From the NCBI RefSeq assembly GCF_004114935.1, contig NZ_CP022221.1, positions 1-64,000 of the forward strand: DNA of 64,000 nucleotides, read 5' to 3'. Positions 1 through 14,021 of this stretch are shown one piece after another. The notes beneath the pieces are model-generated. The model ran no database searches. It saw nothing but the letters and a program-made list of their open reading frames with translations, and was not told where the DNA came from. Origin of the DNA: Bradyrhizobium zhanjiangense (GTDB taxonomy: Bacteria; Pseudomonadota; Alphaproteobacteria; Rhizobiales; Xanthobacteraceae). Each line of letters opens with the position of its first letter. Positions within the stretch are counted from its first letter, which is position 1. The position numbers and the translations under genes were made by a program.

Positions 1-4
1 CAGT

Positions 5-48
5 ATTCCGAGATGATCTCGCCCACCTTTCCGATTTGATGTCGCCCG
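5..48. repeat. IS21 left-end terminal repeats (two copies visible)
   Basis: Two consecutive copies, about 5-25 and 26-48, match in inverted orientation the repeats at 6001-6100. The outermost left copy may lie outside the window. Bases 49-212 are the non-coding left end of the element; I see no other gene there. Confidence 0.7.
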
Positions 49-212
49 GGCGGGAGGCGTTCTGGCAGTCTGGTTTCTGGCATCGGCGGAGCCGCGTGGT
101 CAATCTTGAATCGCGGCTCGAAGGGGTTGTTTTCTGCTGCTCCTGCTGTGGGCATGTGGGCAACGCCCTTCGCGTTGTCCAAGTGCAGCGGCATGTCCAC
201 AGCGCCACGGGC

Positions 213-956
213 TCAGGCCTTCCGGCCGGGTTTGCGGGTTCGCCGCATGCTCTCGCCGTTGAGGTCGATCCGGTGGGCGTTATGGACCAGGCGATCGAGA
301 ACGGCGTCGGCGTAGGTGGGGTCGCCGATCAGCGCGTGCCATTGATCAACGGGGAGTTGGCTGGTGACGATGGTGGAGCGGCGGCCATAGCGGTCCTCGA
401 GGATCTCCAGGAGGTCGTGACGGGCCGTGGCATCGAGCGGCTCGAGGCCCCAGTCGTCGAGGATGAGAAGATCGACGCGGCCGAGGGCACGCAACAGACG
501 GGGGTGGCGGCCGTCTCCGCGCGCCAGAGCGAGATCGGTGAACAGCCGCGGGACGCGCTGATAGAGCACGGAACGGTTGTCGCGGCAGGCCTTGTTGCCG
601 AGCGCGGAGGCGAGCCAGCTCTTGCCGACGCCGGATGGCCCGCAGATCAAAAGGTTGGCGTGGTCATCGATCCATTGGCATTCGACCAGCATCGTCAGCA
701 GGCTGCGGTCGAGGCCACGCGGGGTGCGATAGTCGATGTCCTCGACGCAGGCCTGCTGGCGCAGCTTGGCGTATTGCAGCCGCTTCGAGAGCCGCTTGTC
801 GCGTCGCAGTGAGGCTTCGCGTTCGAGCAGGAGCGCGAGCCATTCGGCGTGGCCGAGGCTGGCAGCCTCGCCGCCGGCTTCGATGTCGGCGAAGGCCTTG
901 GCCATGCCGTGAAGGCCGAGTTGATGGAGTTGATCGAGGGTCGGATGCGTGAGCAA
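213..956 (-). CDS. istB: IstB-type transposition helper ATPase
   Basis: This 247-residue protein matches the usual IstB length. It has a Walker A loop GPSGVGKSW near the middle and a Walker B segment LLILDDWGLEP, with the DnaA/DnaC-like AAA+ layout. In the IS21 family IstB forms an ATP-dependent oligomer on target DNA and recruits and activates the IstA integrase. The gene starts 11 bases after the istA stop, the normal istAB order. The reading frame is intact, although its partner istA is broken in this copy. Confidence 0.93.
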   Translation of the reverse strand: MLTHPTLDQLHQLGLHGMAKAFADIEAGGEAASLGHAEWLALLLEREASLRRDKRLSKRLQYAKLRQQACVEDIDYRTPRGLDRSLLTMLVECQWIDDHANLLICGPSGVGKSWLASALGNKACRDNRSVLYQRVPRLFTDLALARGDGRHPRLLRALGRVDLLILDDWGLEPLDATARHDLLEILEDRYGRRSTIVTSQLPVDQWHALIGDPTYADAVLDRLVHNAHRIDLNGESMRRTRKPGRKA

Positions 957-967
957 GGCATGATCTC

Positions 968-2186
968 CTAGTTGTAGTAGCGCGGCCCGCGGATGTTGGG
1001 ATGGAGGATCGGCGCGTCGTCCGCGGGACGCTTGGGTGAAGGCCGCCGATCGAGATTGTTGGCGAGGATCGATTTGACCGAGCCGTAGGTGCGCGCGCCG
1101 ATGTCGATCGCCCGCATGGCGGCGGCATCGAGCCGCTCGTGCCCGTAGGATCGGGCGAGCCGGATGATGCCGAGACAGGCGCGAAAGCCCTGCTCGGGGT
1201 GCGTGCGTTCATCGAGGATCAGGTCGCACAGCGCCGCGGTGGCCGGTCCGATCGAGGCGGCGTCCTTGCGGATGCGCTCGATGGTCCAGCCGGCGTGGCG
1301 CCGATGACTGGACGCCATGTGCTCCGGCACGGTCGTGTGCTTGTGGTTGCCGCTCATGCGCTGATGCGCGGCGATCCGCTCACCCTTGTGGAATATCTCC
1401 ACGGTGCGGGCGGTGAAGCGGACCTCGACCTCGGCGCGGGCGAAGCGATGCGGGACGCTGTAGTAATGCGCCTCGACCTCGACGTGATAGTCGATGCTGA
1501 CCCGGCAGATCCGCCACTCGGCGAACACGTAAGGGCTCTCCGGCAAGGCCTTGAGCGCCGGCCGGTCGATCTCCTCCAATAGCTTGCGGCGGGTGACACC
1601 GAGCCGCCGGATCGGTCGCTCCTCGTTGAGCCGGATCATCAACTCGGCGATCGCCGCGTTGACGTCGGCGAGGCTGTGGAAGGTGCGGTGGCGCAGCCGC
1701 CCGAGCAGCCAGCGTTCGACCATCAGGACCGCCTGCTCGACTTTGGCCTTGTCCCGCGGCCGTCGCGGCCTGGCCGGCAGAATGGCGGTGCCGTAATGTG
1801 CCGCCATGTCGGCGTAGCTGCGATTGATCCTAGGATCGTAGAGGCAGGCCTTGATCACCGCGACTTTGGTGTTGTCCGGCACCAAGAGCGCCGGCACGCC
1901 GCCGATCGCCTCGAAGGCGCCGACGTGGCCGCTGATCCAGTCGGCGAGCCCCTGCGTCCAGGTCGCCTGCGCGTAGGTGAAGCTCGATGCGCCGAGCACC
2001 GCGACGAAGATCTGCGCGGCGCGCCGCTCGCCGGTGAACCGGTCGATCACCACCGGCACGCCGTCGCCGGCATAGTCGACGAACAGCTTGTCGCCGGCCG
2101 CATGCGACTGGCGCATCGTCACCGACAGGCGGCCTTCCCAGGCGCGGTAAAGCTCGCAGAAGCAAATATGTGATCGTGAACATATC
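968..2186 (-). pseudogene. istA: IstA transposase, 3' part (interrupted by RIT element)
   Basis: The open frame from 2122 encodes 384 residues of an IS21 transposase: the DDE integrase core and the C-terminal arm. The same frame continues upstream to about 2166 as [14 protein letters not shown], which joins the N-terminal piece at 5575-5934. Between them lies the RIT element. The rest of the frame looks undamaged, so the insertion may be fairly recent. The expression [12 protein letters not shown] near the start of the open frame is typical of the IstA catalytic core. Without its DNA-binding N-terminus the fragment should be inactive. Confidence 0.88.
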
Positions 2187-2274
2187 TCGCGTTATGTTGC
2201 CGCCAGATTTATGTTGTCGCTGCTGGAGCGAGCCAAGGATTGCGCCAATTTCCTCGGCTCGCTCCGCAACATAA
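2187..2274. repeat. RIT left end: terminal inverted repeat and recombinase-box motifs
   Basis: The 31-bp terminal repeat (2187-2217) contains two direct copies of a TTATGTTG-type box (2192-2200 and 2210-2217). A third copy lies inverted at 2266-2274 (GCAACATAA). Between them GGAGCGAGCC (2225-2234) pairs with GGCTCGCTCC (2256-2265) as a 10-bp stem. The same box arrangement occurs at the other end, which suggests binding sites for the recombinases. Confidence 0.65.
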
Positions 2275-2291
2275 GAGTGTGACCTTTCGAC

Positions 2292-3287
2292 CTACAGGGC
2301 CTTCAGGAATGCCATCAACGACGGGAGAGAGGGTTGCCGAGGCGGCGGCCTCAGACTGCTGATGTCGACCCTGGCTAACGCCTCTGCTTTCATTTCCAGG
2401 TCGACTTCAGCATAGATGTGCGTGGTGTCTAATGACACGTGGCCCAGCCAAGCACGGATCGTGTTGATGTCGACGCCGGCGCGCAGCAGGTGCACCGCCG
2501 TTGTGTGCCGAACCGTATGTGGGCTTACGCGCTTCGTCGCCAACGTCGGCACCGTTTCGCCCGCCATGGCGGCATATTGCGTCACGAGACGGTGTATTCC
2601 GAAGCGCGTCAAAGGCTGGTTCGTCCGCCCGAGAAAGACCGCTTCACTTTTGTTCCGGTCGGCCACAAGACGAGTCAACGAGGTTGCGGTCGTTGACCAC
2701 AATGGACAGATTCTAACCTTGTTGCCCTTACCGTGAAGTCGCACTGACGGAGACGCACCCAGTTGGAGATTGCCGACCGTCAATTTTGCTGCCTCATCGG
2801 CGCGAGCACCGCTGTTGTATAGGAAAAGCAGCAGAACATGGTCCCGCACCCCAAGACTCGTGCGTCTGTCAGGTTGATTTAGCAACGCGTCCATCTCGGC
2901 CTTTTCGAGGTATCCGATCGCGGTCTTGGCCGTCTTCTTGAACGGCACTGCCCGTATCTCGGAACACCAGGCCAGGTGGATCGGCGAACGCGTCCCGATA
3001 AAGCGCGCCAGTGAATGGATGGTCGCCAGCCGTTGGTTGCGGGTAACCTCGCTGCACCGGCGATCGCGCTCCAGGTGGTCCAGGAACTTGCGGACGACTT
3101 CCGGCGTCAGCTCTTCCACGGTCATGCGATCGATGGCGCAGCCTCCCTGCTTGCTGGCGAACGGCAGCAACAATGTCAGCGTGTCGCGGTAGCTGGCTTG
3201 GGTGTTGCGGGAAAGATTGCGCTCGGCGACCAGATGTTCCAGCAAGAACCGCCGGATCCACGGACCAAGCAGGCTCTTATCCTTCAT
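2292..3287 (-). CDS. ritC: Tyrosine recombinase, third of the RIT trio
   Basis: This is a 331-residue tyrosine recombinase. The N-terminal SAM-like core-binding domain covers about residues 10-100. The catalytic domain shows the first Arg in NSGARADEA, HTVRHTTAVH (HxxR), LGHVSLDTTHIY (second His and nucleophilic Tyr) and a Lys in the beta-hairpin (HGKGNKVR). I chose the ATG at 3287, preceded by GGAGG six bases upstream; a longer frame to 3314 lacks such a site. The gene overlaps the second trio gene by 11 bases, so translation is probably coupled. In RIT elements the three proteins are always kept together, which implies a joint recombination complex. Confidence 0.88.
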   Translation of the reverse strand: MKDKSLLGPWIRRFLLEHLVAERNLSRNTQASYRDTLTLLLPFASKQGGCAIDRMTVEELTPEVVRKFLDHLERDRRCSEVTRNQRLATIHSLARFIGTRSPIHLAWCSEIRAVPFKKTAKTAIGYLEKAEMDALLNQPDRRTSLGVRDHVLLLFLYNSGARADEAAKLTVGNLQLGASPSVRLHGKGNKVRICPLWSTTATSLTRLVADRNKSEAVFLGRTNQPLTRFGIHRLVTQYAAMAGETVPTLATKRVSPHTVRHTTAVHLLRAGVDINTIRAWLGHVSLDTTHIYAEVDLEMKAEALARVDISSLRPPPRQPSLPSLMAFLKAL

Positions 3288-4221
3288 GGTCGGCCTCCAT
3301 CGCGTACAGGGCAAAGCGCTCGCTGGCCGCCTGGAGGAGATCTGGCGTCATCTGCAAATAGCGCTGGGTTGAACGGATATCGATGTGGCCAAGGTAGGTG
3401 GCGAGTTGCGGAAGCAGTCGCTGCACCTCCTGGCCGGAGCGATACCATGCAATTACCCGGTGCACCGCGGCTGTGTGGCGAATATCGTGCAGCCGTGGAG
3501 GTCGAGGCTCGCCGACAGGGCAACTGATTCCGGCGGCCCGGCGGACATGCTGAAACCAGGAGATGACCCGCACATAGTGCCACGGTCGACTGCCGCGCGT
3601 AGTGAATAATGGAGATTCTTGCCCGCGCGGCAGAGGGAGCCGGCGACGGCGCTCGACGTACTCGACCAATTCCTGGTTGAGCTTTGGTCCGATAGGCACG
3701 AGGCGCGTTTTGAAGAACTTCGTGTCACGGACGGTGATGACCTGATCAGTCAGATCCACGTCTTGCAGGACCAAACGAAGCGCCTCGCCAATGCGCATGC
3801 CGCTTCCGTACAGCAATAAGAGGAGCGTACGGTACATAGCTGGCACATGAGGGCGATGCCCAACCTCCAGGATCGAGGTCGCGTCCAACAGGCGGCGCAG
3901 TTCTTCCGTGGAATAAACATAGGGCGTTTGTTGCGGCAGCAGCTTTGGAAACGATGTCGGCAGTGGGGAGGATGCTGCGTACCCGCGACTGATGGCGAAT
4001 CGATAAAGGCCGCTCAAAACCCTATATCGCAGCATCCAGGTGGCACTGAGCGATCCTTTGCCTTGGAGGAACTCGGCTACCGCCTCTGGGGTGACTTCGC
4101 CGATATCTCGATTGCCCATCGCTCGGCAGAACCTACGGAGCAGAACCTCAGCCGACTCGAAACGCGCCCCCAGTGAGCGCTGCTTGGCCAGATAGGCGTC
4201 GACAACATGGGTCAGCCTCAT
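3277..4221 (-). CDS. ritB: Tyrosine recombinase, second of the RIT trio
   Basis: This is a 314-residue tyrosine recombinase with all visible catalytic positions: Arg in GSGMRIGEA, HDIRHTAAVH (HxxR), LGHIDIRSTQRY (His and Tyr), and Lys in TKFFKTRLVP. The start codon ATG at 4221 overlaps the stop of the upstream gene as ATGA, and GGGAGG precedes it. The spacer between HxxR and the final LGH is longer than in its two neighbours because of a segment rich in Arg, Gln and Leu (residues about 255-275). The three trio proteins are clearly different subfamilies, not recent duplicates. Confidence 0.88.
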   Translation of the reverse strand: MRLTHVVDAYLAKQRSLGARFESAEVLLRRFCRAMGNRDIGEVTPEAVAEFLQGKGSLSATWMLRYRVLSGLYRFAISRGYAASSPLPTSFPKLLPQQTPYVYSTEELRRLLDATSILEVGHRPHVPAMYRTLLLLLYGSGMRIGEALRLVLQDVDLTDQVITVRDTKFFKTRLVPIGPKLNQELVEYVERRRRLPLPRGQESPLFTTRGSRPWHYVRVISWFQHVRRAAGISCPVGEPRPPRLHDIRHTAAVHRVIAWYRSGQEVQRLLPQLATYLGHIDIRSTQRYLQMTPDLLQAASERFALYAMEADHEG

Positions 4222-5441
4222 TGGAGGCCTCCCAGGTCGAACGCTCCGACCTCGCGAAGCGCCTGCATGTTCACCTTGGCGTAGATGCTGGTTGACGCCG
4301 CGCTGCGATGTCCCAAATGGTCCCCGATCTCCTTTATCGACAGACCTTCGGCGAGAAGCCGGGAGGCGCAGGCGTGGCGCAACGCATGGCCACCGCGGTG
4401 GGCAGCGTCGATTCCAAGTGCAACAAATCTGCGGTTGGCGACATCATAAATGCTCCCTGCCTTCAACGGTCGACGGGGCGCGTGCATGCAGAGGAACACT
4501 TCCGGGCACGATGATAGCGGCCGCACCGTGTCGATGTAGCGGGCGAGCGCCTCAGCCGCAGAGGGAACCAGGGGATAGATCTGCGGCTGCCGGCGCTTCA
4601 GGCGGAAAAGCCGTAGCGTCCTACCGGCCCAGTCAATCTGATCAAGGCGCAATGCCGCCGCTTCGCCGCTGCGCATCCCGTAGACCGCGAGCAACAGCAG
4701 GATCGCACGATCGCGGATGTCCCGGGGGTTGTCAGTCTCGGCGTCGGCCAACATGCGCTGCACGTCGAACCAATCTGGGGCATACGGCAGCGACTCCTGA
4801 CGATAAAGCCGAGGCCGGCAAATCGAGGCCGCTAAGCGGTCCGTACACATTCCCCGCTTTGCCGCGTAGCGCAGAAATCCCCGCAAGGCAGAGGCTGTGT
4901 TGGCCACCGAAACGCGGGACCATCGTCCCGTCGCCTGGGCGACAAAATAGGCGTCAACGTCTTCAGGCTGAAGGTCCCTGAGTTGCCGGTTGGTTTTGTC
5001 GCACCAGCGCAGGAACCTGCCGATTATCCGGCTCCATTGCTCCACCGTCGATGGCGAGAATCCGCGCTCATTGCGCATCCATGTCACATACTGGTCGAGT
5101 TGGCTCTGGTACTGAAACACGACGGTTGGTTCACGCCACCAACCGAGAAATCGAAGCCAAGGCCGTCCGATGTCGACCACTCTTCGTGCTGCGGTGGCAG
5201 CCCCCGTCAGGCGCAGACGCTCGGTCGCGATCCGTTGGAGTGCCTCGATATCGATGCCCTGCGAAGCATCTGGACCGAGACGTGCGGCAATCCGCAACAG
5301 CTCGTTGCGCTTGATCTTGAGAGAAGCTGCGGTCGCACCGGCTTCTGCACAGTGGCGAAGGTACCGGTACCGCTCGTCGGTGAATGGCGCGTCATCACGG
5401 TGGGGTACGGTCAAGGGAATGGAATATATCGTCTGATCCAT
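4218..5441 (-). CDS. ritA: Tyrosine recombinase, first of the RIT trio
   Basis: This 407-residue protein is the longest of the trio. An extra N-terminal region of about 110 residues precedes the core-binding domain. The catalytic domain shows MRSGEAAALR (Arg), RLKRRQP (Lys region), HALRHACASR (HxxR) and LGHRSAASTSIY (His and Tyr). I chose the ATG at 5441 because GGAGG stands six bases before it. The open frame runs back to 5567, but that stretch overlaps the element's terminal repeat and is unlikely to be coding. The promoter should lie between 5441 and the right terminal repeat. Confidence 0.87.
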   Translation of the reverse strand: MDQTIYSIPLTVPHRDDAPFTDERYRYLRHCAEAGATAASLKIKRNELLRIAARLGPDASQGIDIEALQRIATERLRLTGAATAARRVVDIGRPWLRFLGWWREPTVVFQYQSQLDQYVTWMRNERGFSPSTVEQWSRIIGRFLRWCDKTNRQLRDLQPEDVDAYFVAQATGRWSRVSVANTASALRGFLRYAAKRGMCTDRLAASICRPRLYRQESLPYAPDWFDVQRMLADAETDNPRDIRDRAILLLLAVYGMRSGEAAALRLDQIDWAGRTLRLFRLKRRQPQIYPLVPSAAEALARYIDTVRPLSSCPEVFLCMHAPRRPLKAGSIYDVANRRFVALGIDAAHRGGHALRHACASRLLAEGLSIKEIGDHLGHRSAASTSIYAKVNMQALREVGAFDLGGLQ

Positions 5442-5485
5442 AGCGAGCCTCCATTGGACAAAAGGTTCGCTACCCAGACGTCGAA

Positions 5486-5574
5486 TTATGTTGCGTGAAC
5501 AATGCCCGCAGAGCTCAGGCTCCCCGCAATTATCGCTCCTTGCACAACATAAATCTGGCCGCAACATAACGCGA
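5486..5574. repeat. RIT right end: terminal inverted repeat and recombinase-box motifs
   Basis: The terminal repeat (5544-5574) holds two GCAACATAA-type boxes (about 5546-5553 and 5561-5569). An inverted inner copy TTATGTTGC lies at 5486-5494. This mirrors the left end (2192-2274): two outer boxes in one direction and one inner box reversed. The stretch 5442-5543 has no gene and must contain the trio's promoter. Confidence 0.65.
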
Positions 5575-5934
5575 ATAGCGATACCCGCCGGGTTCGCCCG
5601 CGATGTACTCCTCCCACAGGATCGCCAGCGTCACGTGCTTGCGCCGGAGTTCGCGGTGCACCGCCGCCCAATCCGGCTCCGCCTGCCGGCGATGGCCCCG
5701 CCGCGTGCCGGGCCCGGCTCCCGCGCTGGCGAACAGCCGGGCCTCCAGCTCCGTGTCGGTGATGTCGTCGGTCAACGGCCAGCTCAGCCCCGCCGCCTCG
5801 AACCGGCGGATCGTCAACCGCACCGTCGATGGGGCCGTCCCCACCCGCCGCGCAATCTCACGGGTCGACATTCCCGCCGACTTCAATCTGATCACATCGC
5901 GCACGTGGCGCATCGCAAGCCTCTCCGTCGGCAT
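5575..5934 (-). pseudogene. istA: IstA transposase, 5' part (interrupted by RIT element)
   Basis: This is the N-terminal ~120 residues of the IS21 transposase. The start is ATG at 5934 (MPTERLAMRHVRDVIRLK), preceded by GGGGGA. It carries the helix-turn-helix MSTREIARRVGTAPSTV that binds the terminal repeats. The frame runs to GGYRYSR at 5575 and then enters the RIT terminal repeat. The remainder of the gene resumes at about 2166. Confidence 0.87.
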
Positions 5935-6000
5935 CCAGGTCCCCCTTCGCAAAGCCGAAAGGCGGGACCGTATCGGAGCCAGAAGAGGCCTCGTCACCCC

Positions 6001-6100
6001 GGGCGACATCATCCCGGAATGGTGGGCGAGATCATCTCGGAATGGCGGGCGAGATCAAATCGGAACGGTGGGCGAGATCATTCCGGAATGGTGGGCGACA
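6001..6100. repeat. IS21 right-end terminal repeats (about five copies)
   Basis: Five copies of a ~22-bp unit (core TGGGCGAGATCATNCCGGAAT) follow each other, starting near 6001, 6023, 6046, 6069 and 6092. The last is partial. In the IS21 family such multiple terminal repeats are IstA binding sites. Confidence 0.75.
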
Positions 6101-6308
6101 TCGAGCGGAATCAGCAACACTATCTGCTTTGCAGAATTTGGAGAGGGATCAATCGCAGTCACCACGAAACTGCGCGACCCACCCAAACTCTCCAGCAGGT
6201 ACTGTAAGTTTTTACCATCTCCAACACCAACTTCTAGCCAACTCAGCGTAACACCACGAGCTAGGCGCTCATCAAGACCACCAAGTATCTCATCGCGCTC
6301 GGATCCAC
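6101..6308 (-). pseudogene. SAM-dependent methyltransferase remnant, second part
   Basis: The minus strand has an open frame from 6300 reading ERDEILGGLDERLARG, then SWLEVGVGDGKN. The latter is a class I methyltransferase motif I (E-V-G-x-G-x-G-like glycine loop), followed about 20 residues later by VVTAIDPS, the usual acidic motif II. The frame runs into the IS21 end at 6100. Its first 18 codons lie beyond the IS66 element at 8925-8978, and the two parts join in frame when the IS66 element and one 8-bp duplicate are removed. The gene is therefore hit twice: interrupted near codon 18 by IS66 and truncated near codon 85 by IS21. Confidence 0.7.
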
Positions 6309-6330
6309 GTACGCATACGACGAAGGCCGC
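6301..6330. repeat. IS66 left target duplication and terminal repeat
   Basis: GGATCCAC at 6301-6308 is the duplicated target. GTACGCATACGACGAAGG from 6309 is the inner terminal repeat and matches the right end, with several mismatches. Confidence 0.75.
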
Positions 6331-6385
6331 CTGATTGACGCATGCGCGCGAGCACGGCGAGTTCTACGATGGCGTTGCGTGAAGG

Positions 6386-8046
6386 TCAGGCGGCTTGCTG
6401 ATCGGCGGACTTGCCGGCTTGGTGCAGGAGCTTCCATTCCCAGGGCAGCAGTTCGCGCAGACGCGAGGTGGGAAGATCAGCGATCCGGGCGAGGACGTCG
6501 GCGAGCCAAGCCTTGGGATCGACGTCGTTGAGGCGACAGGTCGTGATCATCGTCAGCATGATAGCTGCACGATCGGCGCCACGCTGGCTGCCAGCGAAGG
6601 TCCAGTTGCGCCTTCCCAGGGCAATGCCTCTCAATGCACGCTCAGCGCAATTGTTGGTCAAGCAGATCCTGCCATCGTCGAGGAAGCGGACGAAGTCGTC
6701 CCAGCGCTTAAGCATGTAGTTCATGGGCTTCAGGACCTCGGCGGAGCGCGAGAGGCTTTCTCGCTCGCGGAGCAGCCAGTCGTACATGTCGTCGAGCAGC
6801 GGCTTGCTCCGCTCCTGGCGCACAGCACACCGCTCGTCGGCACTACGGCCGTTGATGGCGCGCTCGATCTCGAACAACGCATCCAGACGCCTGACCGCCT
6901 CCAGCGCGATCGGGGAGACCGGTTTGCCCTTGCCCTCCCGGGCGGCTTTCTCGACGTCAGCCAGCTCGAAGAATCCCCGCCGCGCATGGGCCAGGCAAAA
7001 TGCCGGCGTGATCGGCATTGCTTTCCTTTTTGGGTCGAACAACGGCTCGAAGCCGCCATAGCAATCCGCCTGCAGAATGCCGACGAAGGCGGCCAGATGC
7101 CTCTGGGGATGTTCGCCCCGTCGATTGCCCGAGGCATAATAGACCGCCGCCGGCGGCGCAGGCCCGGCGAACGGCCGGTCATCCCGCACATACGTCCAGA
7201 TCCGGCCGGTCGTGCATTTGCCCTTCGCCAGGATGCGGATGGTGGTGTCGTCGCCATGAAGGCGCTCGGCCGCGAGCACATGACGCTCGATCAGCTGGAA
7301 CAGCGGCATGACGGCGAAGGTTCCGTGGCCGACCTGGTCGGCCAGCGTCGACAGCGGCAGATCGATCCTCTCGGCCTTGAAGCGCACGCTCTGGCGGTTG
7401 AGCGGGATATGCATGCCGAACTTGTCGAACAAAATCGTCGCCAGCAATTGTGGGCCGATGAAGCCGCGGGGCGTCGCATGGAACGGTGCCGGCGGCTGGC
7501 TGATCTTCTCGCAATCGCGGCAGGTGAACTTCTCGCGTACCGTCTCGATGACCTTAAAGCGACGCGGAATCTCCTCCAGCGTCTTGGTCACATCCTCGCC
7601 GACCTTCGCCAGCCGCGATCCACCGCAGCAGGCGCAGGTCGTTGGAGCCTCGATGACGACGCGCTCACGTTCGATGTCGTCCGGCCACGGTTTGCGCACC
7701 GGCCGCTTGCGCGTGAAGGCGCTCACGCTCTGGGTTTTTGCCGCGGCAGCCTGCGCAGCCAGCTCATTCTCGGTCGCCGTGGTGGCGAGTTCTTCGAGCT
7801 CCAATTCCAACTGCTCGAGTAGCCGCGCCGTGCGCTCGGAGCGCTGCCCGTGCAGTTCGCGTTTGAGCTTCTCGATCCGTAGCTCAAGATGAGCGATCAG
7901 CACCTCGCTGTCCGACAGCTCCGCCGCGCGTTGGCGGCATCCGCCACTGCCACATCGCGTTCAGCCTGCAACGCCTCGTGCTCGACCAGCAGCGCAAGGT
8001 AGGCGCTCGCGAGATCCGACGGAAGATCGTTCGGCTTCGATGTCAT
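6386..8046 (-). pseudogene. tnpC: IS66 transposase TnpC, frameshifted near its N-terminus
   Basis: The main frame (from 7903) encodes 505 residues: a leucine-zipper-like N-terminus, a zinc-binding segment with CACCGG and CRDC, and the IS66 DDE domain, with NNCAERALRG near the end. The natural start is the ATG at 8046 (MTSKPNDLPSDLASAY). That frame stops after about 50 codons. The two frames connect if one G is restored around 7921-7926, so a single-base deletion has broken the gene after ~40 codons. Internal start codons could still give a truncated protein. Known IS66 transposition requires all three products. Confidence 0.82.
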
Positions 8047-8091
8047 GAAGCCATTGAATCAGATCGAGCATCAGATTCAAACCCAAAACGA

Positions 8092-8439
8092 TTATCCGAC
8101 CCGCGTCGGACGCTGGGTTTCTTGCGGATTGCGCCAATCGATCCCGGACAGCAGGTAGCTCAACTGCGCCAGCGAGATCGTTACCGCTTCACCGGCAACC
8201 GATGGCCAGATAAACTTTCCTCTCTCGAGTTTTTTTGTGAACAAGCAGGCTCCCTGACCATCGTGCCAGATCACCTTCACAAGATCGCTGCGGCGACCGC
8301 GGAAGACAAACAAATGACCGCTAAGCGGTTCTTTGTGCAGCACCTCCTGCACTTGGAGGGCCAGCGATGGAAAGCCTCTGCGCATATCCGTGTAGCCTGT
8401 AGCCAGCCACACTCGCACATTCCCTGGTACAGAAATCAT
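8092..8439 (-). CDS. tnpB: IS66 accessory protein TnpB (Orf2-like)
   Basis: This 115-residue protein has the highly conserved IS66 Orf2 signature (YTDMRRGFPSLALQVQE, then GHLFVFRGRRSDLVKVIWHD). I place the start at the ATG at 8439, where it overlaps the tnpA stop as ATGA. A longer frame upstream overlaps tnpA and is unlikely. Function in transposition is established genetically for the family, but the biochemical role is unknown. Confidence 0.92.
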   Translation of the reverse strand: MISVPGNVRVWLATGYTDMRRGFPSLALQVQEVLHKEPLSGHLFVFRGRRSDLVKVIWHDGQGACLFTKKLERGKFIWPSVAGEAVTISLAQLSYLLSGIDWRNPQETQRPTRVG

Positions 8440-8837
8440 CGGCGTCCAAGCACATCGAGGACCCGCGCCAACGCCTCCGGATCGACGTGCGCATCCACCC
8501 GGATGCACCGTCGGTTGCCGAGATCGATCTCTATCAATCCAGTACGCGCGGCTGCCGCCGACCGAACTCGGCCATCAACCGTAGGCAAAAGCTTCGGAGT
8601 TTCTTCAGCCGGGGCCGCTACGGCGGCGATCTGCACCGGCGTAAAAGATAGCCCAACTTGTTCCGATGTCCGTGCTTGTCGACGCCAGGTAAACACCAGG
8701 CTGGCCGCTACTCCGTTGCGCCGCGCAACCTCAGTTACCTTCGCGCCCGGCGCCAGCGTCTCCTCGACAATCCGTGCCTTGTCGTCCTGCGACCAACGCC
8801 GCCGCCGCTCGAGCCCGCCCAAAACCTCGACCCGCAT
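8436..8837 (-). CDS. tnpA: IS66 accessory protein TnpA (Orf1-like, helix-turn-helix)
   Basis: This 133-residue protein contains an IS3/IS66-type helix-turn-helix (RRRWSQDDKARIVEETL, then VTEVARRNGVAASLVFTW). Its C-terminal half is variable in the family. It is the first gene of the IS66 operon and overlaps tnpB by four bases. The frame is intact. Confidence 0.9.
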   Translation of the reverse strand: MRVEVLGGLERRRRWSQDDKARIVEETLAPGAKVTEVARRNGVAASLVFTWRRQARTSEQVGLSFTPVQIAAVAAPAEETPKLLPTVDGRVRSAAAARTGLIEIDLGNRRCIRVDAHVDPEALARVLDVLGRR

Positions 8838-8902
8838 CGCCTGATGACCTTAAAGCTAGACTTAAGGTCACACGCTTCGCGAATTACCACCCGTCACGCA
8901 AG

Positions 8903-8932
8903 ACGGTCCTCGTCGGAGGCGTACGGATCCAC
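8903..8932. repeat. IS66 right terminal repeat and target duplication
   Basis: The right end finishes CGTCGGAGGCGTAC at 8924. The second copy of GGATCCAC lies at 8925-8932. Confidence 0.75.
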
Positions 8933-8978
8933 TTCCAAATACTGACTTACATTTCGTCAATGCACCTAATGTGTCCAC
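8925..8978 (-). pseudogene. SAM-dependent methyltransferase remnant, first 18 codons
   Basis: After the TAG stop of the kinase-like gene (8985-8987) the same frame contains a GTG at 8978 and a TTG a few codons on. It reads VDTLGALTKCKSVFGSGS up to the IS66 target duplication. Removing the IS66 element joins this in frame with the methyltransferase fragment at 6101-6300. The gene was therefore the third member of an operon with the kinase-like and HAD genes. The exact start codon is unsure because no strong ribosome binding site is visible. Confidence 0.55.
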
Positions 8979-8984
8979 CGCTGT

Positions 8985-9548
8985 CTACCGAACCTGATCC
9001 ACGATCAGTTTGGCTATCCGCGCGACTGCTGCCGCATCGGCCGCATCTACGAAGCAGGCTGGAAGGTCAAACTCCTTGATAACGGCTGATACCTGTTGAT
9101 CAATCCGGGTCCGAAACTCAGGATCTTCATGTGCCGCACACTTCTCAGCGAAGGTTTCGGAAAGCTCAAGCCGCACAATCGCGTTCCAGCGTTTCGACAT
9201 TGTTCGCGTCACCTCCTCATACAATGCCTTTTCGATTATCGTATTTGCATTGAGCACGCGCACGTAGGCGAGAGCGTCGATCGCGCAACGATCCAATATC
9301 GCTATGTCGACCTCGATTTCCCTCTCTCGGCGCAAATGCTCGCGAAAGATCGCAGCAACTCCCCCAGCGTCGGCACCGCTTCCGACCGCATATCCTGAGG
9401 CTCTTATCTTGTCGCCAAGTCCGTCAATCAGCGCAACCCGACGATCACCGTACCTGCCACGAAGCACCTCATACAGCGATCTACAGAAGGTCGACTTACC
9501 GACTCCCTGCGCGCCAGTAATCACAATAACAAATGGAGAAATCATCAT
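8985..9548 (-). CDS. P-loop kinase-like ATPase (AAA_28/nucleoside-kinase-like)
   Basis: This 187-residue protein has a Walker A motif GAQGVGKST at residues about 12-20. An ILDRCAIDALAYVRVL segment follows, resembling the DR motif of deoxynucleoside and NadR-type kinases. The size and lack of extra domains suggest a small-molecule or nucleotide kinase. I cannot name the substrate. The gene starts with a tandem ATGATG and lies 58 bases after the HAD gene in the same direction. A methyltransferase remnant follows at once in the same reading frame after the TAG stop. Codon use includes many A/T-ending codons, unlike the core genes to the right, which suggests horizontal acquisition. Confidence 0.75.
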   Translation of the reverse strand: MMISPFVIVITGAQGVGKSTFCRSLYEVLRGRYGDRRVALIDGLGDKIRASGYAVGSGADAGGVAAIFREHLRREREIEVDIAILDRCAIDALAYVRVLNANTIIEKALYEEVTRTMSKRWNAIVRLELSETFAEKCAAHEDPEFRTRIDQQVSAVIKEFDLPACFVDAADAAAVARIAKLIVDQVR

Positions 9549-9606
9549 GCAGATACACCAACATTACGCGCCACACTGTGAAACCAGCCTGATCGCACTC
9601 CCGCCT

Positions 9607-10485
9607 TCAGTTGCTGGGAGCAGCCAGTTCTGCGTTCGTAAAGCGCTCGAAGGTCAAATAATCAAAAATCTCAGAAAAGCTGTGCTCGAGGACAGTCACC
9701 GCTTCGAGCTTGCTTAGATCATCACCAAGGAGCTCAAGCTCTCTCGATACGTCTTCGCTCGTCCAGTGAGAAACTCGTGCTAAAAGCTCGAACTCGATTC
9801 GATCGCGGGTCTCGCCATATCTCGCGTGAAGGGCGAGAATGCCGGCATTACGAGCCATTAGAACATCCCGCGTAAGGCTATCGCCTACGTAGGCGGTTCT
9901 TTGCTTGTCAGAACCCACCACTGAGACGAGGTCGTATAAGATACGAGGGTCGGGCTTCGACAAGCCTGGCCGCAGGTGATGCATACGAACTTGTGCGGGC
10001 AGGAACTCCCTATAGTTAGCATTCGAGTCTCGGTAAGCCGGAACAGAGTGGCCTTCACGGCAAAACAGCTCATCAATAAAATTCAACAATCCAAGCTCGC
10101 ACAGACGATTTACCGCATGCTGCTCCATCGATTCTGTACACACAACGATCCTCGCGCCGATTGACTTAACGGCGGCGAGGGCCTGTGTAACACCACGATA
10201 TGGCGTTACGCGCCGCTTTATGGAGCTCGTTCGCTGCTCTACGCGGCGACGAATATCACTAATCTGGGGTGCCTCCGCTCCTAGCAACTCCTCAAGAAGA
10301 TACTCATAATCCGAGGTGCCTTGTCGTCGATGGATTCGACGTATTTCAGCTTCAGCCCTCTCTCCCCCAAGAATGGTAGAGATCTCGTCATAAGTGATTG
10401 AAAATGGCGCGTGCCACCAGCTCAGCCAGTCAAACAGCGTGTTATCCAGGTCAACGATCAGAGTATCTACTATTGTCCGCGTCAT
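9607..10485 (-). CDS. HAD-superfamily hydrolase (phosphatase-like)
   Basis: This 292-residue protein shows all four HAD motifs: DLDNTLFD (motif I, nucleophile and acid Asp), VCTES (motif II), the Lys of SKPDP (motif III) and GDSLTRDV (motif IV). A helical cap of about 100 residues sits between motifs I and II, as in C1-cap phosphatases. The last ~60 residues form an extra acidic tail. It is the first gene of the HAD/kinase/methyltransferase set. The substrate is unknown; the pairing with a kinase suggests phosphoryl transfer on a nucleotide-like or sugar-like compound, which is inference only. Base composition is AT-richer than the flanks. Confidence 0.8.
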   Translation of the reverse strand: MTRTIVDTLIVDLDNTLFDWLSWWHAPFSITYDEISTILGGERAEAEIRRIHRRQGTSDYEYLLEELLGAEAPQISDIRRRVEQRTSSIKRRVTPYRGVTQALAAVKSIGARIVVCTESMEQHAVNRLCELGLLNFIDELFCREGHSVPAYRDSNANYREFLPAQVRMHHLRPGLSKPDPRILYDLVSVVGSDKQRTAYVGDSLTRDVLMARNAGILALHARYGETRDRIEFELLARVSHWTSEDVSRELELLGDDLSKLEAVTVLEHSFSEIFDYLTFERFTNAELAAPSN

Positions 10486-10694
10486 GGCCCCAGCTCGCGA
10501 GCACTGCGGCCTCGCGAATCGAACACTACCGTTGCGCGAACTTTATTCCGACACTGCCTTTTCGTGCCAGCGAAATCTCTTCACTCAGAGGTCCAAGAGG
10601 TGCCCGCTAAATCGACATTTCGTTTTTTCTAGAGTTTGCAAAGGGTTACAGAATTTCACTTTTGTCAAGCCGCTGCCTCGTCTAAGTGAGAGAC
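10486..10694. other. Gene-free stretch upstream of the HAD gene
   Basis: About 210 AT-rich bases in which I see no convincing gene. It should contain the promoter of the minus-strand HAD operon. It also marks the right border of the AT-rich patch, because high-GC sequence resumes near 10690. Confidence 0.4.
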
Positions 10695-10936
10695 GCTCCA
10701 TTTTTCCGCTGTACTCGCCCCCGGCAGCATCACCCGGAGGCGCATCCCATTGAGCGCGCGCGCACAACCGCACCCCAACCCCTCCCCAAAAATCTCGTCA
10801 TCTGCCGTGACGGCACCGGCAACGAGATCGCGGAGAACATCTCCAACCTCCTGAAGCTCTAGCGCTGCCTGCGCAAGACCGCCAGGACGCAGCCCCGGCA
10901 GATGGTGTCTTGCGACCCCGGATCGGCACGATGACA
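10695..10936 (+). pseudogene. Truncated duplicate of the 5' end of the DUF2235 gene
   Basis: About 240 bases closely match 13972-14205, the promoter and first ~60 codons of the intact DUF2235 gene. The start is lost (ATTG instead of ATGG), a TAG replaces a Tyr codon after GAAGCTC, and small indels break the frame. The match covers upstream sequence as well as coding sequence, so this is a DNA duplication, not just a distant paralogue. Homology stops near 10936, just before a CtrA-type box. Confidence 0.8.
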
Positions 10937-10963
10937 ACACTCGTAAACAGCGCCCCTCCCGCG

Positions 10964-10979
10964 TTAACCGTCCATTAAC
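10964..10979. promoter_or_regulatory. Candidate CtrA binding site upstream of the HTH/ftsZ2 pair
   Basis: TTAACCGTCCATTAAC fits the full CtrA consensus TTAA-N7-TTAAC exactly. It lies 80 bases before the start of the next gene (11060), within promoter range. CtrA is the cell-cycle response regulator of alphaproteobacteria, including rhizobia. Binding here is inferred from the motif only. Confidence 0.55.
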
Positions 10980-11059
10980 CAACGCAGCCTAGCCTGCTGC
11001 AATCGTCCAGCCATCACTAGCTCGAAATGCCTTCCCGGTTCGCTCCAGGAGAAGCGCCG

Positions 11060-11572
11060 ATGTGCGTTGAGTTGTTGACGTATGCCGATCTCAGTGCCCG
11101 CCTCGGTATCTCCCGGGAGGCCGCGCGTTCGCTGGCGAGGCGCCGCCGGTTGGCGCGCTCGCGGTCGGAGGACGGCAAGGCGCTGGTGAGGGTTGATTTC
11201 TCCGAGCTCCGCTACACGCCCCGCCCACGACGCGGCCGCCGGGCAGATCCGATCGATGCCTCGCTGGCCAAGATCGAGGCCTTCAAGATCGAGGCATTCA
11301 AGGCGGAGGTCGCGCGGCTCGAAATGGTGGCAGCCAACACCCGGGCCGATTTCGAGCGCGAGCGCGAGCGTGCCGATCGGCTCAAAGTCGAGCTGATGCA
11401 GGCGGCCGCCGAGACGGCGGCAGCCAATGCGTGGGCGGCACGGCTGGAAGACGAAGTGGCGGTTCTGCGGAGCGGTCGCCGCGCGGGCGGCGCGATCGCA
11501 GGATACGCCGCGCGTCGATTGGGACATCTGGCCGCTGCGATCGTGCAAGCAGACCGCGCGGCTTGCAGGTAG
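11060..11572 (+). CDS. Helix-turn-helix protein with long coiled coil
   Basis: This protein has 170 residues if it starts at the ATG at 11060, which follows AGGAGA; an upstream frame to 11027 exists. Residues about 5-50 resemble a winged or MerR-like helix-turn-helix ([19 protein letters not shown]). Residues about 75-150 are rich in Ala, Glu, Arg and Lys with heptad spacing, consistent with a coiled coil. This layout recalls plasmid KfrA-type DNA-binding proteins. The gene ends 52 bases before ftsZ2 in the same direction, so the two may be co-transcribed from the CtrA-box promoter. Function unknown. Confidence 0.65.
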
Positions 11573-11624
11573 CACTCGAAAACTTTCTCCATCCCCGGCA
11601 TGCCGGAGCAATCACGAGGGAAGC

Positions 11625-12884
11625 ATGACTGGCATCACCGATATCCACGAAATGAAGGCCCGCATCGTCGTGTTCGGGGTCGGCGGCGCCGGCGGCAATG
11701 CGGTCAACAACATGATCACGGCCGGGCTGCAAGGGGTCGAGTTCGTGGTCGCCAATACCGACGCGCAGGCGCTGGCCATGTCGAAGGCGAGGCACCTGAT
11801 CCAGCTCGGCACAAAGGTGACCGCAGGCCTCGGCGCCGGCTCGCAGCCGGAATTGGGACGCGCCGCAGCCGAAGAGGCGATCGATACGATCCGCGATCAA
11901 TTGACCGGTGCGCACATGGTGTTCGTGACGGCCGGCATGGGCGGCGGCACCGGCACCGGGGCCGCCCCCATCGTCGCCAGGGCCGCGCGCGAGCTCGGCA
12001 TCCTCACGATCGGCGTCGTCACCAAGCCGTTCTACTTCGAGGGCCAGCGCCGCATGCGCTTTGCCGAAGCCGGCATCGAGGAGTTGCTGAAGACGGTCGA
12101 CACCCTCTTGATCATCCCGAACCAGAACCTGTTCCGGGTGGCCAGCGACAAGACCACATTCGCCGACGCCTTCGCCCTTGCCGACCAGGTGCTTTATTCG
12201 GGCGTGGCCTGCATCAGCGACCTCATCGTCAAGGAAGGCCTGATCAATCTCGATTTTGCCGACGTCCTCTCGGTCATGAAGGAGAAGGGCAAGGCCATGA
12301 TGGGACGGGGCGAGGCTTCCGGCGAGAAGCGCGTGCTTGCCGCCGCCGTGGCCGCGATCTCCAATCCTTTGATCGAGAATCCCTCGATCAAGCGCGCCAG
12401 TGGCCTCATCATCTCCATCACCGGCGGCAAGGATCTGATGCTGTATGAGGTCGACGAAGCCGCGACCCGCATTCGCGACGAGGCCGACCCGGACGCCAAC
12501 ATCATCGTCGGCGCGTCGTTTGACGACAGCCTCGAAGGCATCGTCCGCGTCTCGGTGGTGGCGACCGGTATAGATAATCTCGACCCGGCACCGCAGGCGC
12601 AACCGGTGGAAACCGCCCTGACGCAGCTCGCCGGCAGGCTGCGCAACGACGGCCGCCGCATCGCCGATCGCATCGAGCGCAGTGCACCCCTTGCGCAAGT
12701 GGAAAGCCCGCCGCTGCGTCCGCAGCCGCACCACCCCGTGGGGCCACCGGCAAGGCCTAGCCTGGAACATGCACGCCACGCGGCCGACCGGCCGCTCGAT
12801 CCCTACGGCCGCACCGCTGCGCGCAATGCGCCCGACGAGGCCGTTCTCGATATCCCGGCCTTCCTGCGCCGCGCCGCCAACTGA
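11625..12884 (+). CDS. ftsZ2: FtsZ paralogue (second FtsZ, short linker)
   Basis: This 419-residue tubulin-family GTPase has the glycine-rich loop [12 protein letters not shown] (residues about 104-115) and the T7 synergy loop NLDFAD (208-213). Both halves of the GTPase site are therefore present. Residues about 320-405 are a Pro-rich linker. The C-terminus ends [11 protein letters not shown], close to the conserved peptide that binds FtsA and ZipA-type partners. Alphaproteobacterial main FtsZ proteins have a much longer linker and sit in the dcw cluster; here there are no dcw neighbours, so I call it a second copy. The start is ATG at 11625 after GAGGGA. The upstream HTH/coiled-coil gene and a CtrA-type box suggest cell-cycle control. 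Confidence 0.9.
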
Positions 12885-12990
12885 GTGGTCGCGGGAGTCG
12901 GGGCTCGTCTCCAACCGGACATGGACCGCTGCTACGCGGCTCCCCCGCTTGCGGGAGAGGGTAACCGCATATGAGCATCAACAAGAGGTC

Positions 12991-13074
12991 GTCATGCCCG
13001 GACTTGTCCCGGGCATCCACGTTCTTTGTGCTGCGGGGTAAGGCGTGGATGGCCGGGACAAGCCCGGCCATGAC
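12991..13074. repeat. Intergenic palindromic repeat (GTCATGCCCGG family)
   Basis: Two 31-bp arms, 12991-13021 and 13044-13074, are inverted copies with about three mismatches and could form a long hairpin after ftsZ2. The arms start GTCATGCCCGGACTTG. The region 12885-13177 holds no gene that I can support. Confidence 0.75.
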
Positions 13075-13177
13075 GATGTGGAAACTTCAGCACCCCAAGC
13101 GCTCGCGTCATATGCGATTGCCCTGCGCTTGCGGAATCTGCAGACGAGCTTCTTAAGCTGCGCGGCGCGCCGATCGC

Positions 13178-13858
13178 TCACGCGGCCGTGCTGCGCGGGC
13201 TCTCCGCTGATTCCTTCTTGTCCGTCTCCTTGTCGCGAGACAGCCATGCTGGAAAACGAAGCAGGCGTTCGTTGCTGTCTTTCGGCAGCTCGATGGGCGG
13301 CGCTTCATTGGCCGAACTCGGCAGGTCCAGCGCGACGTGACCTGTTCGCACCGCATCCGCGCGCTGATCCAGTTCGCGCAACAGGGGATCGAGCACGCTG
13401 TCGATTTCGGTCGCCACCGACACCAGGAAGCTATTGAGCTCGCGCGCCTCGGGCACGACGACCGCAGCCGACTCGATCGCCTTGGAGAGACCATCGACGA
13501 CGGGTGCAAACGCGCCGGCGGCTTGCTTGACTCGGGTTTTGATCGCTTCGATCTCGCACAAGACGCGCTCACGCTCCCGCCTTTTCTTCTCCTCCGAAAG
13601 GCGGGCTTCAATTTCGGCGATCTGGGCCGTCAGGGTCGTGGCTTCGGATGCGAGTGCATCGCGTCTTCCGCGCGCGCGATCGAGATCGCGGCTGAGATTG
13701 TCCACTAAGTCGTCCTTTCCAAACATGGCTTTGCTCCGTACGACAGCCGTTTTGGTCTGTAGGACGGCCTTGGCGCGAACCGCCAGCCTGGCAAGCGAAC
13801 GAAAGGCTGGATCGGCCGAAACAGGCATCAATTTCGGTCGCGTCACATGGGCCGACAT
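13178..13858 (-). CDS. Coiled-coil protein of unknown function
   Basis: This 226-residue protein starts at the ATG at 13858, preceded by GGGGGA; a longer frame to 13936 is possible. Residues about 55-120 form a charged heptad-rich region (DRARGRRDALASEATTL, then EARLSEEKKRRERER) typical of a coiled coil. No signal peptide or membrane segment is visible. The C-terminal 40 residues are polar and look disordered. A CtrA-type box lies 39 bases upstream. It lies next to ftsZ2 in convergent orientation. I do not recognise the family. Confidence 0.65.
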   Translation of the reverse strand: MSAHVTRPKLMPVSADPAFRSLARLAVRAKAVLQTKTAVVRSKAMFGKDDLVDNLSRDLDRARGRRDALASEATTLTAQIAEIEARLSEEKKRRERERVLCEIEAIKTRVKQAAGAFAPVVDGLSKAIESAAVVVPEARELNSFLVSVATEIDSVLDPLLRELDQRADAVRTGHVALDLPSSANEAPPIELPKDSNERLLRFPAWLSRDKETDKKESAESPRSTAA

Positions 13859-13896
13859 GGTGATCCCCCACTCGTCCACATTAGGCGACGGCATGG

Positions 13897-13911
13897 TTAA
13901 CAAGTTGTTAA
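13897..13911. promoter_or_regulatory. Candidate CtrA binding site between coiled-coil gene and DUF2235 gene
   Basis: TTAACAAGTTGTTAA fits TTAA-N7-TTAA and is also an inverted repeat (TTAAC-N5-GTTAA). It is 39 bases upstream of the minus-strand gene start and 111 bases upstream of the plus-strand DUF2235 gene. Either could be the target. Confidence 0.45.
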
Positions 13912-14021
13912 TGTCAACAGGTGAGAGATGGGGCAAAATGCCGGCGACGCCGCCTTCGGCTCCTAGCTGCCCTCCATTTCCGCTATACTCGCCCCGGTAG
14001 CATCACCCCGAGGCGCATCCC

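Follow-up and report, generated by a model that had tools for sequence, protein, structure and literature searches.

Possible remains of an acquired six-gene, nucleotide-centred anti-phage system in Bradyrhizobium zhanjiangense

Why would a HAD phosphatase, a nucleotide kinase and a broken methyltransferase share one AT-rich patch of a rhizobial genome? The patch lies in the first 64,000 nucleotides (the window) of the single contig of 9,342,022 bases that makes up the genome of Bradyrhizobium zhanjiangense (NZ_CP022221.1). An earlier note, made from the letters of the window, had described it as a three-gene acquired module with a possible role in nucleotide modification or defence, broken by two insertion sequences. 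We propose, tentatively and with somewhat less than even confidence, that these genes are what is left of a single nucleotide-centred anti-phage system of six genes, acquired by horizontal transfer. It would be a variant of nucleotide-based defence that perhaps made and sensed a methylated nucleotide, and it would be inactive or impaired in the present genome.

The three genes were first verified as such. The intact HAD and kinase genes run in one direction, 58 bp apart, and match Pfam HAD_2 and AAA_28, respectively (Table 1). The methyltransferase gene begins 6 bases past the kinase stop and in the kinase frame, as the earlier note had seen, and its codons on the two sides of the IS66 element do join in frame when the element and one copy of its 8-bp target duplication are removed. 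The joined pieces equal residues 1-79 of P0093, the uncut version of the methyltransferase (248 residues, on a 65,017-base contig; one match among 12 candidates in the protein database). The C-terminal part was found at the far end of the contig, where it corresponds to P0093 residues 74-248 at 98% and ends 36 bases ahead of window base 1; because the gene reads on across the contig ends, the contig was treated as circular. In total, P0093 residues 1-79 and its last 168 residues are equal to the pieces in the window genome, the start residue excepted (GTG read as V vs M). The window fragment alone remained below the Pfam cut-offs (best expectation value (E) 9.5e-4), whereas P0093 passed four Pfam methyltransferase models (PF13489, PF08242, PF08241 and PF13649) and is a class I S-adenosylmethionine (SAM) methyltransferase, so that the identification is not due to chance and the third gene is indeed a methyltransferase. 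Since the pieces match the intact P0093, the gene was whole before the two insertions. No relative of the methyltransferase was found in plasmid records or in viral contigs, and a PDB sequence search gave nothing significant.

The two insertions were identified as a complete IS66-family element, whose inverted ends are 80% complementary and which cuts the gene after 16 codons, and an IS21-like element, for which the names IS21, IstA and IstB come from visual reading of the protein sequences and terminal repeats and not from a family match. The reconstruction in the earlier note was right, and the methyltransferase continues past the second insertion at the far end of the contig. The gene, now in three pieces, probably leaves the system dead or altered, while the frames of the HAD, kinase, HEAT, HARE-HTH and MazG-like genes are still open and could retain partial function. 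As a separate observation, three consecutive tyrosine recombinase genes, which we take to be a RIT-like element, lie inside the IS21-like transposase gene and form a mobile-element nest within the methyltransferase gene.

The extent of the acquired block was determined by comparison with relatives. The gene beside rpmB (a name presumed by eye) was matched in 26 of 26 same-genus genomes, the own genome included; eight of the 25 others were fetched, and, with one too short (L126), seven relatives were usable. On the left, homology ends at the identical base just past rpmB (L068:12527) in all seven. On the right, it resumes at window positions 10703-10706 in L124, L125 and L130 and at 10924 in L123; in L127, L128 and L129, it resumes at about 13977, with the border stretch also aligning to about 10702-10935, because 10702-10935 and 13977-14205 resemble each other. 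These borders delimit a block larger than the HAD-kinase-methyltransferase triplet, which was therefore rejected as a complete unit: what stood of the earlier proposal is one acquired module with a methyltransferase as its third gene, and what did not is the number of genes, which is six rather than three. The cargo of this single site, about 14.2 kb long with its insertions, consists entirely of the six genes MazG-like, HARE-HTH, HEAT, methyltransferase, kinase and HAD. In that order, the MazG-like gene reads leftward and diverges from the HARE-HTH gene, which is followed by the HEAT gene with a 4-bp overlap; the end of the HEAT gene in turn overlaps by 4 bp that of the methyltransferase gene, which faces it and is the last of the leftward HAD, kinase and methyltransferase genes. 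The AT-richness noted earlier was borne out, with a GC content of 54% from the MazG-like to the HEAT gene, 50-52% in the methyltransferase pieces and 53% in the kinase and HAD genes, while the flanks stand at 65% and the two insertions at 63%. Common borders in the relatives, common low GC and tight operons make it well supported that the six genes form one horizontally acquired unit, and they probably also work as one system. Beyond the right border, a gene that looks FtsZ-like by eye (10936-13977) adjoins the insertion site. Three of the seven relatives lack the sequence as far as about 13977, so that the site may hold two neighbouring variable segments.

Table 1. Features of the acquired block, its borders and the inserted elements. 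Plain coordinates are window positions; G000:C1 coordinates are contig positions outside the window.
Feature	Position	Strand	Basis or remark
Left end of block	G000:C1 about 9338526		far end of circular contig
MazG-like protein, 121 aa	G000:C1:9338570-9338935	-	
HARE-HTH protein, 313 aa	G000:C1:9339016-9339957	+	
HEAT-repeat protein, 502 aa	G000:C1:9339954-9341462	+	HEAT hit below cut-off, E 0.0047
Methyltransferase, C-terminal part	G000:C1:9341462-9341986	-	own-genome search
IS21-like element splitting the methyltransferase	1..6114	-	other end about 36 bp beyond window base 1
IS21-like parts	213-956; 968-2122 and 5530-6012; 6000-6114		IstB-like; IstA-like; 23-bp repeats
Three consecutive tyrosine recombinases	2292..5567	-	nested between the two IstA-like parts
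Methyltransferase, middle piece, 63 codons	6118..6306	-	SAM motif I LEVGVGDGKN; match to P0093
IS66 target duplication, 8 bp, GGATCCAC	6300..6307 (copy 1); 8926..8933 (copy 2)		
IS66-family element	6308..8925	-	inverted ends, target duplication, three IS66-type proteins by Pfam
IS66 inverted ends	6308-6332; 8901-8925		
IS66 protein genes	6386-7903; 8092-8508; 8436-8837		DDE transposase; TnpB-like; helix-turn-helix protein
Methyltransferase, first 16 codons	8931..8978	-	GTG start at 8978; codons equal P0093 start
P-loop nucleotide kinase, 187 aa, intact	8985..9548	-	Pfam AAA_28, E 5.4e-8
HAD phosphatase, 292 aa, intact	9607..10485	-	Pfam HAD_2, E 1.2e-14
Right end of block	10486..10706	no strand	homology with relatives resumes at 10703-10706 in 3/7

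A defence role of the block, which we regard as quite likely, is suggested by its site and by its HAD gene. At the same place beside rpmB, five of the seven relatives carry other clearly defence-like cargo, and the site is thus a defence hotspot: L124 combines a DUF3800 gene with a retron-type reverse transcriptase (10027-12590; best PADLOC model RT-Toprim I-C), L125 and L127 have LmuB-like genes, L127 with a DUF4917 defence candidate in addition, L129 has an ATPase of the PDC-M55A/NsnB/OLD kind, and L130 has a HARE-kinase, a SIR2 and a methyltransferase gene. The cargo of L123 gave a weak RmuC-like match (E 7e-9), and that of L128, not scanned for domains, is outside this count. CBASS and plain restriction-modification were considered and set aside, with no such model among the PADLOC hits of HAD, kinase, P0093, HARE-HTH and HEAT; the scan did not include the window MazG-like protein, whose Methylobacterium hispanicum homologue had no hits. 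Three weak PADLOC matches were not built on (kinase to mad8, E 4.4e-6, in the P-loop part; P0093 to mad2, E 9.8e-4; the tail of the M. hispanicum HEAT protein to PDC-M14B, E 5.4e-5).

The HAD protein itself belongs to a defence-type family, matching the PADLOC model Hydrolase over residues 8-283 of 292 (E 3.8e-39). Nucleotides and defence, the area pointed to earlier, were supported as the right one. The HAD residues D12, D14, T117, K177, D202 and D207, presumably catalytic, are invariant in all 17 aligned rows, and its structure model has a predicted local distance difference test (pLDDT) score of 88. We surveyed the gene context of the family in 30 distinct loci (18 viral contigs and 12 others, of which six came from 20 plasmid hits and six were genome loci), omitting a duplicate (L042) and fragments (L053-L055). 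The partner was a membrane protein in 16 loci (fused in four), a metallophosphoesterase in 13 (many near-identical) and another protein in one (L094); none of the 30 has as partner a kinase from the family to which that of the window belongs. The four HADs nearest to that of the window (47-49% identity) and four of the six nearest kinases have longest contigs of equal size (6227, 6388, 14911 and 5720), which we read as the same metagenome contigs; the earlier proposal was not refuted on the co-occurrence of HAD and kinase, and a recurrence of the full triplet was not shown. In a midpoint-rooted tree, the window HAD and the four kinase-linked HADs form a clade (support 98/97), joined by three unfused HADs, P0079, P0085 and P0086 (100/100). 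The wider group around them (100/100) holds seven further HADs, of which all but one, whose context was not established, are membrane-fused. The simplest reading is a partner swap, in which this clade would have lost the membrane module and gained the kinase. A clade that seems to have a kinase and a methyltransferase in place of the membrane partner points to a nucleotide as the HAD substrate and makes the idea testable. The relatives P0086 and P0077 were not found in viral contigs.

Three further observations concern this HAD family. In L094 (8001-8846), the recognised partner is replaced by an upstream 259-residue protein with two hydrophobic segments. Plasmid neighbours of the family include Hachiman, ABC three-component system, restriction and AIPR genes; on an E. 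coli IncHI1B plasmid (L046:1-11798), genes for a restriction endonuclease and for HamA of Hachiman lie next to a metallophosphoesterase and HAD pair. The same annotation pair lies under hits on nine Klebsiella plasmid records and one Enterobacter record.

The kinase has a P-loop, a DR motif and an NMP-kinase fold of the dTMP-kinase, deoxynucleoside-kinase or NadR-kinase type, and neither the P-loop lysine nor the DR motif varies across the 38 aligned rows; the protein fails the dTMP kinase model TIGR00041 (E 0.12, 12 bits vs a cut-off of 83.25). At family strength, it was found in the own genome only, both among 397 genomes of the order and among 385 of the class. Weak matches in 38 of the 397 (E 3.3e-5 to 9.7e-4) and two in the 385 (E 1.5e-12 and 6.7e-14) were not counted as family; beside the first of the latter two (L065, 32% identical), there is no HEAT, HARE-HTH or HAD gene. 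The idea that the kinase is a gene of phages or plasmids was rejected: tblastn over 50,697 phage and 72,556 plasmid records gave no match, and neither viral contigs nor a single-sequence scan of genome contigs yielded a confirmed one. The HEAT protein is similarly rare, being found at family strength in the own genome only among the 385 class genomes and in three of 120 nearer relatives, the own genome included. For the MazG-like protein, a match to dCTP pyrophosphatase 1 was obtained (E 1.9e-14).

Evidence that the two halves of the block belong together came from a kinase-family profile search over a genome collection, which gave eight loci, one of them good, in M. hispanicum (L002), and others in Nomurabacteria and Zixiibacteriota at 24-30% identity. 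In M. hispanicum, the kinase (41% identity), HEAT (41%), HARE-HTH (48%) and MazG-like (56%) genes stand in the order and orientation of the window genome. As both families are rare, it is unlikely that kinase and HEAT became adjacent twice by chance. Furthermore, G455 (L076:5474-8846) has a gene row in which HEAT is accompanied by an adenylate-kinase-like P-loop gene, frameshifted in this draft genome, and by a 436-residue protein with a methyltransferase-like motif; the two enzyme assignments have Pfam E values of only 0.03-0.2. One half of the 436-residue protein is methyltransferase-like; its first half looked by eye like a nucleoside deoxyribosyltransferase, an assignment for L076:5474-6784 that neither Pfam at E 10 nor a PDB search supported.

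A related arrangement was found when the HARE-kinase fusion of L130 was searched in 126 same-genus genomes, of which nine, the own included, had a match. The full fusion of HARE-HTH with an adenylate-kinase-like domain is present in five (G413, G493, G461, G194 and G482), and in all five loci it is accompanied by genes for a methyltransferase, a SIR2 protein and a HAM1-like protein, although the HAM1-like gene of G194 is shortened. The remaining matches were a decayed locus (G466), HARE-HTH with a 587-residue protein and a methyltransferase (G445), HARE-HTH with a 690-residue HEAT protein (G477) and the window genome; the loci of G413, G461, G493 and G445 lie beside rpmB. The HAM1-like profile of the five loci matches KomB (8zsg, E 5.7e-33), and the SIR2 protein of L130 matches KomC (8zsf, E 1.5e-42), the other four SIR2 proteins being assigned by blastp likeness to it. 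A KomA-like gene was not noticed in these loci, where KomA itself was not searched. Because a methyltransferase and an own kinase are present and a KomA-like gene was not seen, a natural guess by analogy is that these loci would make a base- or sugar-methylated nucleotide. The loci suggest a possible methylation branch of modified-nucleotide immunity in which an own kinase would replace the borrowed phage kinase. As Kongming-like loci, L130:2322-6153, L142, L143, L145 and L146 are perhaps the better system to study first.

The window block parallels four of these roles with other proteins, namely HARE-HTH, nucleotide kinase, methyltransferase and nucleotide pyrophosphatase, and a methylated nucleotide is therefore favoured as its signal or poison, a chemistry that we infer and regard as plausible though clearly less than even. 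In the proposed mechanism, the HARE-HTH and HEAT proteins would sense infection or regulate the gene set, the methyltransferase would methylate a (deoxy)nucleoside or its monophosphate, and the dTMP-kinase-like enzyme would phosphorylate the product. The modified nucleotide could act as an alarm signal or could poison the polymerase of the phage. Its sensing or clearance may fall to the MazG-like relative of dCTP pyrophosphatase, and the HAD may remove the signal in resting cells or answer it as an effector. A bolder proposal, which we consider doubtful, is a new class of bacterial immune signalling. In it, a dedicated methyltransferase would work with a nucleotide kinase to produce a methylated (deoxy)nucleotide as the alarm, and a pyrophosphatase-like sensor of the MazG or KomB type would detect it; HARE-HTH would be the trigger shared by all such systems, and the effectors would be exchangeable (HEAT/HAD in this block, SIR2 in the loci with KomB/KomC and perhaps CHAT elsewhere).

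Several findings weigh against a single six-gene system of this kind. HAD and methyltransferase genes were not found in the M. hispanicum genome, in searches run without a positive control, and they may be late or optional members; as far as these searches show, the kinase stands there without either of them. HARE-HTH/HEAT pairs occur without this kinase in L072, L073, L077 and L078. The co-location of HAD and kinase in metagenomes is deduced solely from equal contig sizes, two of the six closest kinases (P0002 and P0005, on short contigs) have no matching HAD, and of the sister HADs P0079, P0085 and P0086 only the unfused state is established. The window methyltransferase has no significant BLASTP likeness to that of the L130 locus (E 0.078), the window kinase is of AAA_28 and thus of another subfamily than the AAA_17/AdkA-like kinases of the KomB/KomC loci, and the block contains no SIR2, HAM1 or membrane effector.

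Some of these findings favour the strongest rival, that two independent cassettes, MazG/HARE-HTH/HEAT and HAD-kinase-methyltransferase, came to lie side by side in a hotspot without cooperating: the rpmB site gathers unrelated defence genes, three of the kinase-less HARE-HTH/HEAT pairs have a CHAT C-terminus instead, and two of the three genes of the second cassette were not found in M. hispanicum in the searches made. We nevertheless consider this explanation unlikely, since the kinase stands next to HEAT in the same place and orientation in M. hispanicum, the G455 row combines HEAT with kinase-like and methyltransferase-like genes, if at weak scores, and five loci have a fusion of HARE-HTH with a nucleotide kinase beside a methyltransferase gene. 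On the Agrobacterium plasmid that carries one of the CHAT pairs (L072:1-14918), CHAT, caspase, TIR and S8 peptidase genes are dense around it.

Improbable is the view that the block starves the phage of nucleotides, with the MazG-like protein converting dNTPs to dNMPs and the HAD converting these to nucleosides, while kinase and methyltransferase serve immunity or regulation. The dCTP pyrophosphatase match, the retained HAD motif residues and a weak match of the HAD to the model of YjjG, a noncanonical pyrimidine nucleotidase (E 4.8e-7, well short of the model cut-off), would suit it, but a salvage-type kinase would counteract depletion, and the membrane partners of 16 of the 30 HAD-family loci suggest signalling over bulk depletion. 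We think it quite improbable that the kinase senses nucleotides modified by the phage instead of making the signal, with HAD or HEAT as effector. A like role is proposed for the DndF P-loop kinase in PMC12839542 and PMC10853773, the latter of which also states that HARE-HTH recognises DNA with modified bases; on the other hand, the invariant P-loop lysine and DR motif suggest catalysis, and a methyltransferase in the same operon suggests synthesis. An ordinary metabolic operon for nucleoside or small-molecule modification without a phage link is very unlikely, for although most of the enzymes have metabolic cousins, the site is a mosaic defence hotspot, the distribution is rare and patchy, and the HAD is of a defence-type family.

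The proposed six-gene system can be compared with several known ones, and no paper describing the set was found in the open-licence literature, a search that does not establish its absence from print. The closest relative by its HAD is the system of a HAD hydrolase and a membrane protein, which is said to have been described in P4-like satellites by Rousset in 2022 and whose Rst_Hydrolase-3Tm type is presumably what the PADLOC models Hydrolase and Hydrolase-TM represent. The HAD family is the same, and the clade of the window HAD belongs to a group with HADs that are membrane-fused, but the window has a kinase and a methyltransferase in place of the membrane partner: no hydrophobic segment was found in HAD, kinase, P0093 or HEAT, and no gene other than the kinase adjoins the HAD. 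Inhibition of T7 by a transmembrane protein together with a HAD-like hydrolase is described in PMC9122126. According to PMC13092281, DS-9, a pair of a metallophosphatase and a HAD phosphatase, is protective, and the function and target of the HAD phosphatase in defence are stated as unknown. The HAD of the E. coli plasmid pair, equated with DS-9 by description only, is 31% identical to the window HAD, and no metallophosphatase domain was among the listed matches of the six block genes. The pairs of HARE-HTH and HEAT-CHAT (L072, L073 and L077) share 33-35% identity in HARE-HTH and 25-28% in the HEAT part with the window proteins, whereas the window HEAT has no CHAT end and adjoins a nucleotide kinase operon. 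Prokaryotic viperins occur with nucleotide kinases and likewise place a SAM-dependent enzyme beside one, although theirs is a radical SAM enzyme and that of the block a class I methyltransferase.

The mechanism closest to the one proposed is that of Kongming. KomA is a deaminase, and no deaminase was among the listed matches of the six block genes, KomA itself not having been searched; nor was a KomC-type SIR2 NADase among them, and in place of a HAM1-like KomB the block has the MazG-like protein, homologues of both Kom proteins being present in the related loci (that of KomB in L130, L142, L143, L145 and L146). According to PMC12948488 and PMC12774641, KomA, a phage kinase and the host nucleoside diphosphate kinase make dITP, which switches on KomB/KomC. 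The likeness lies in a modified nucleotide that is made by a modifying enzyme and a kinase and read by a pyrophosphatase-like protein, and the difference in that the window block has a methyltransferase, its own kinase and a MazG-like gene; if the proposal is true, its product would be the methyl-nucleotide counterpart of Kongming's dITP.

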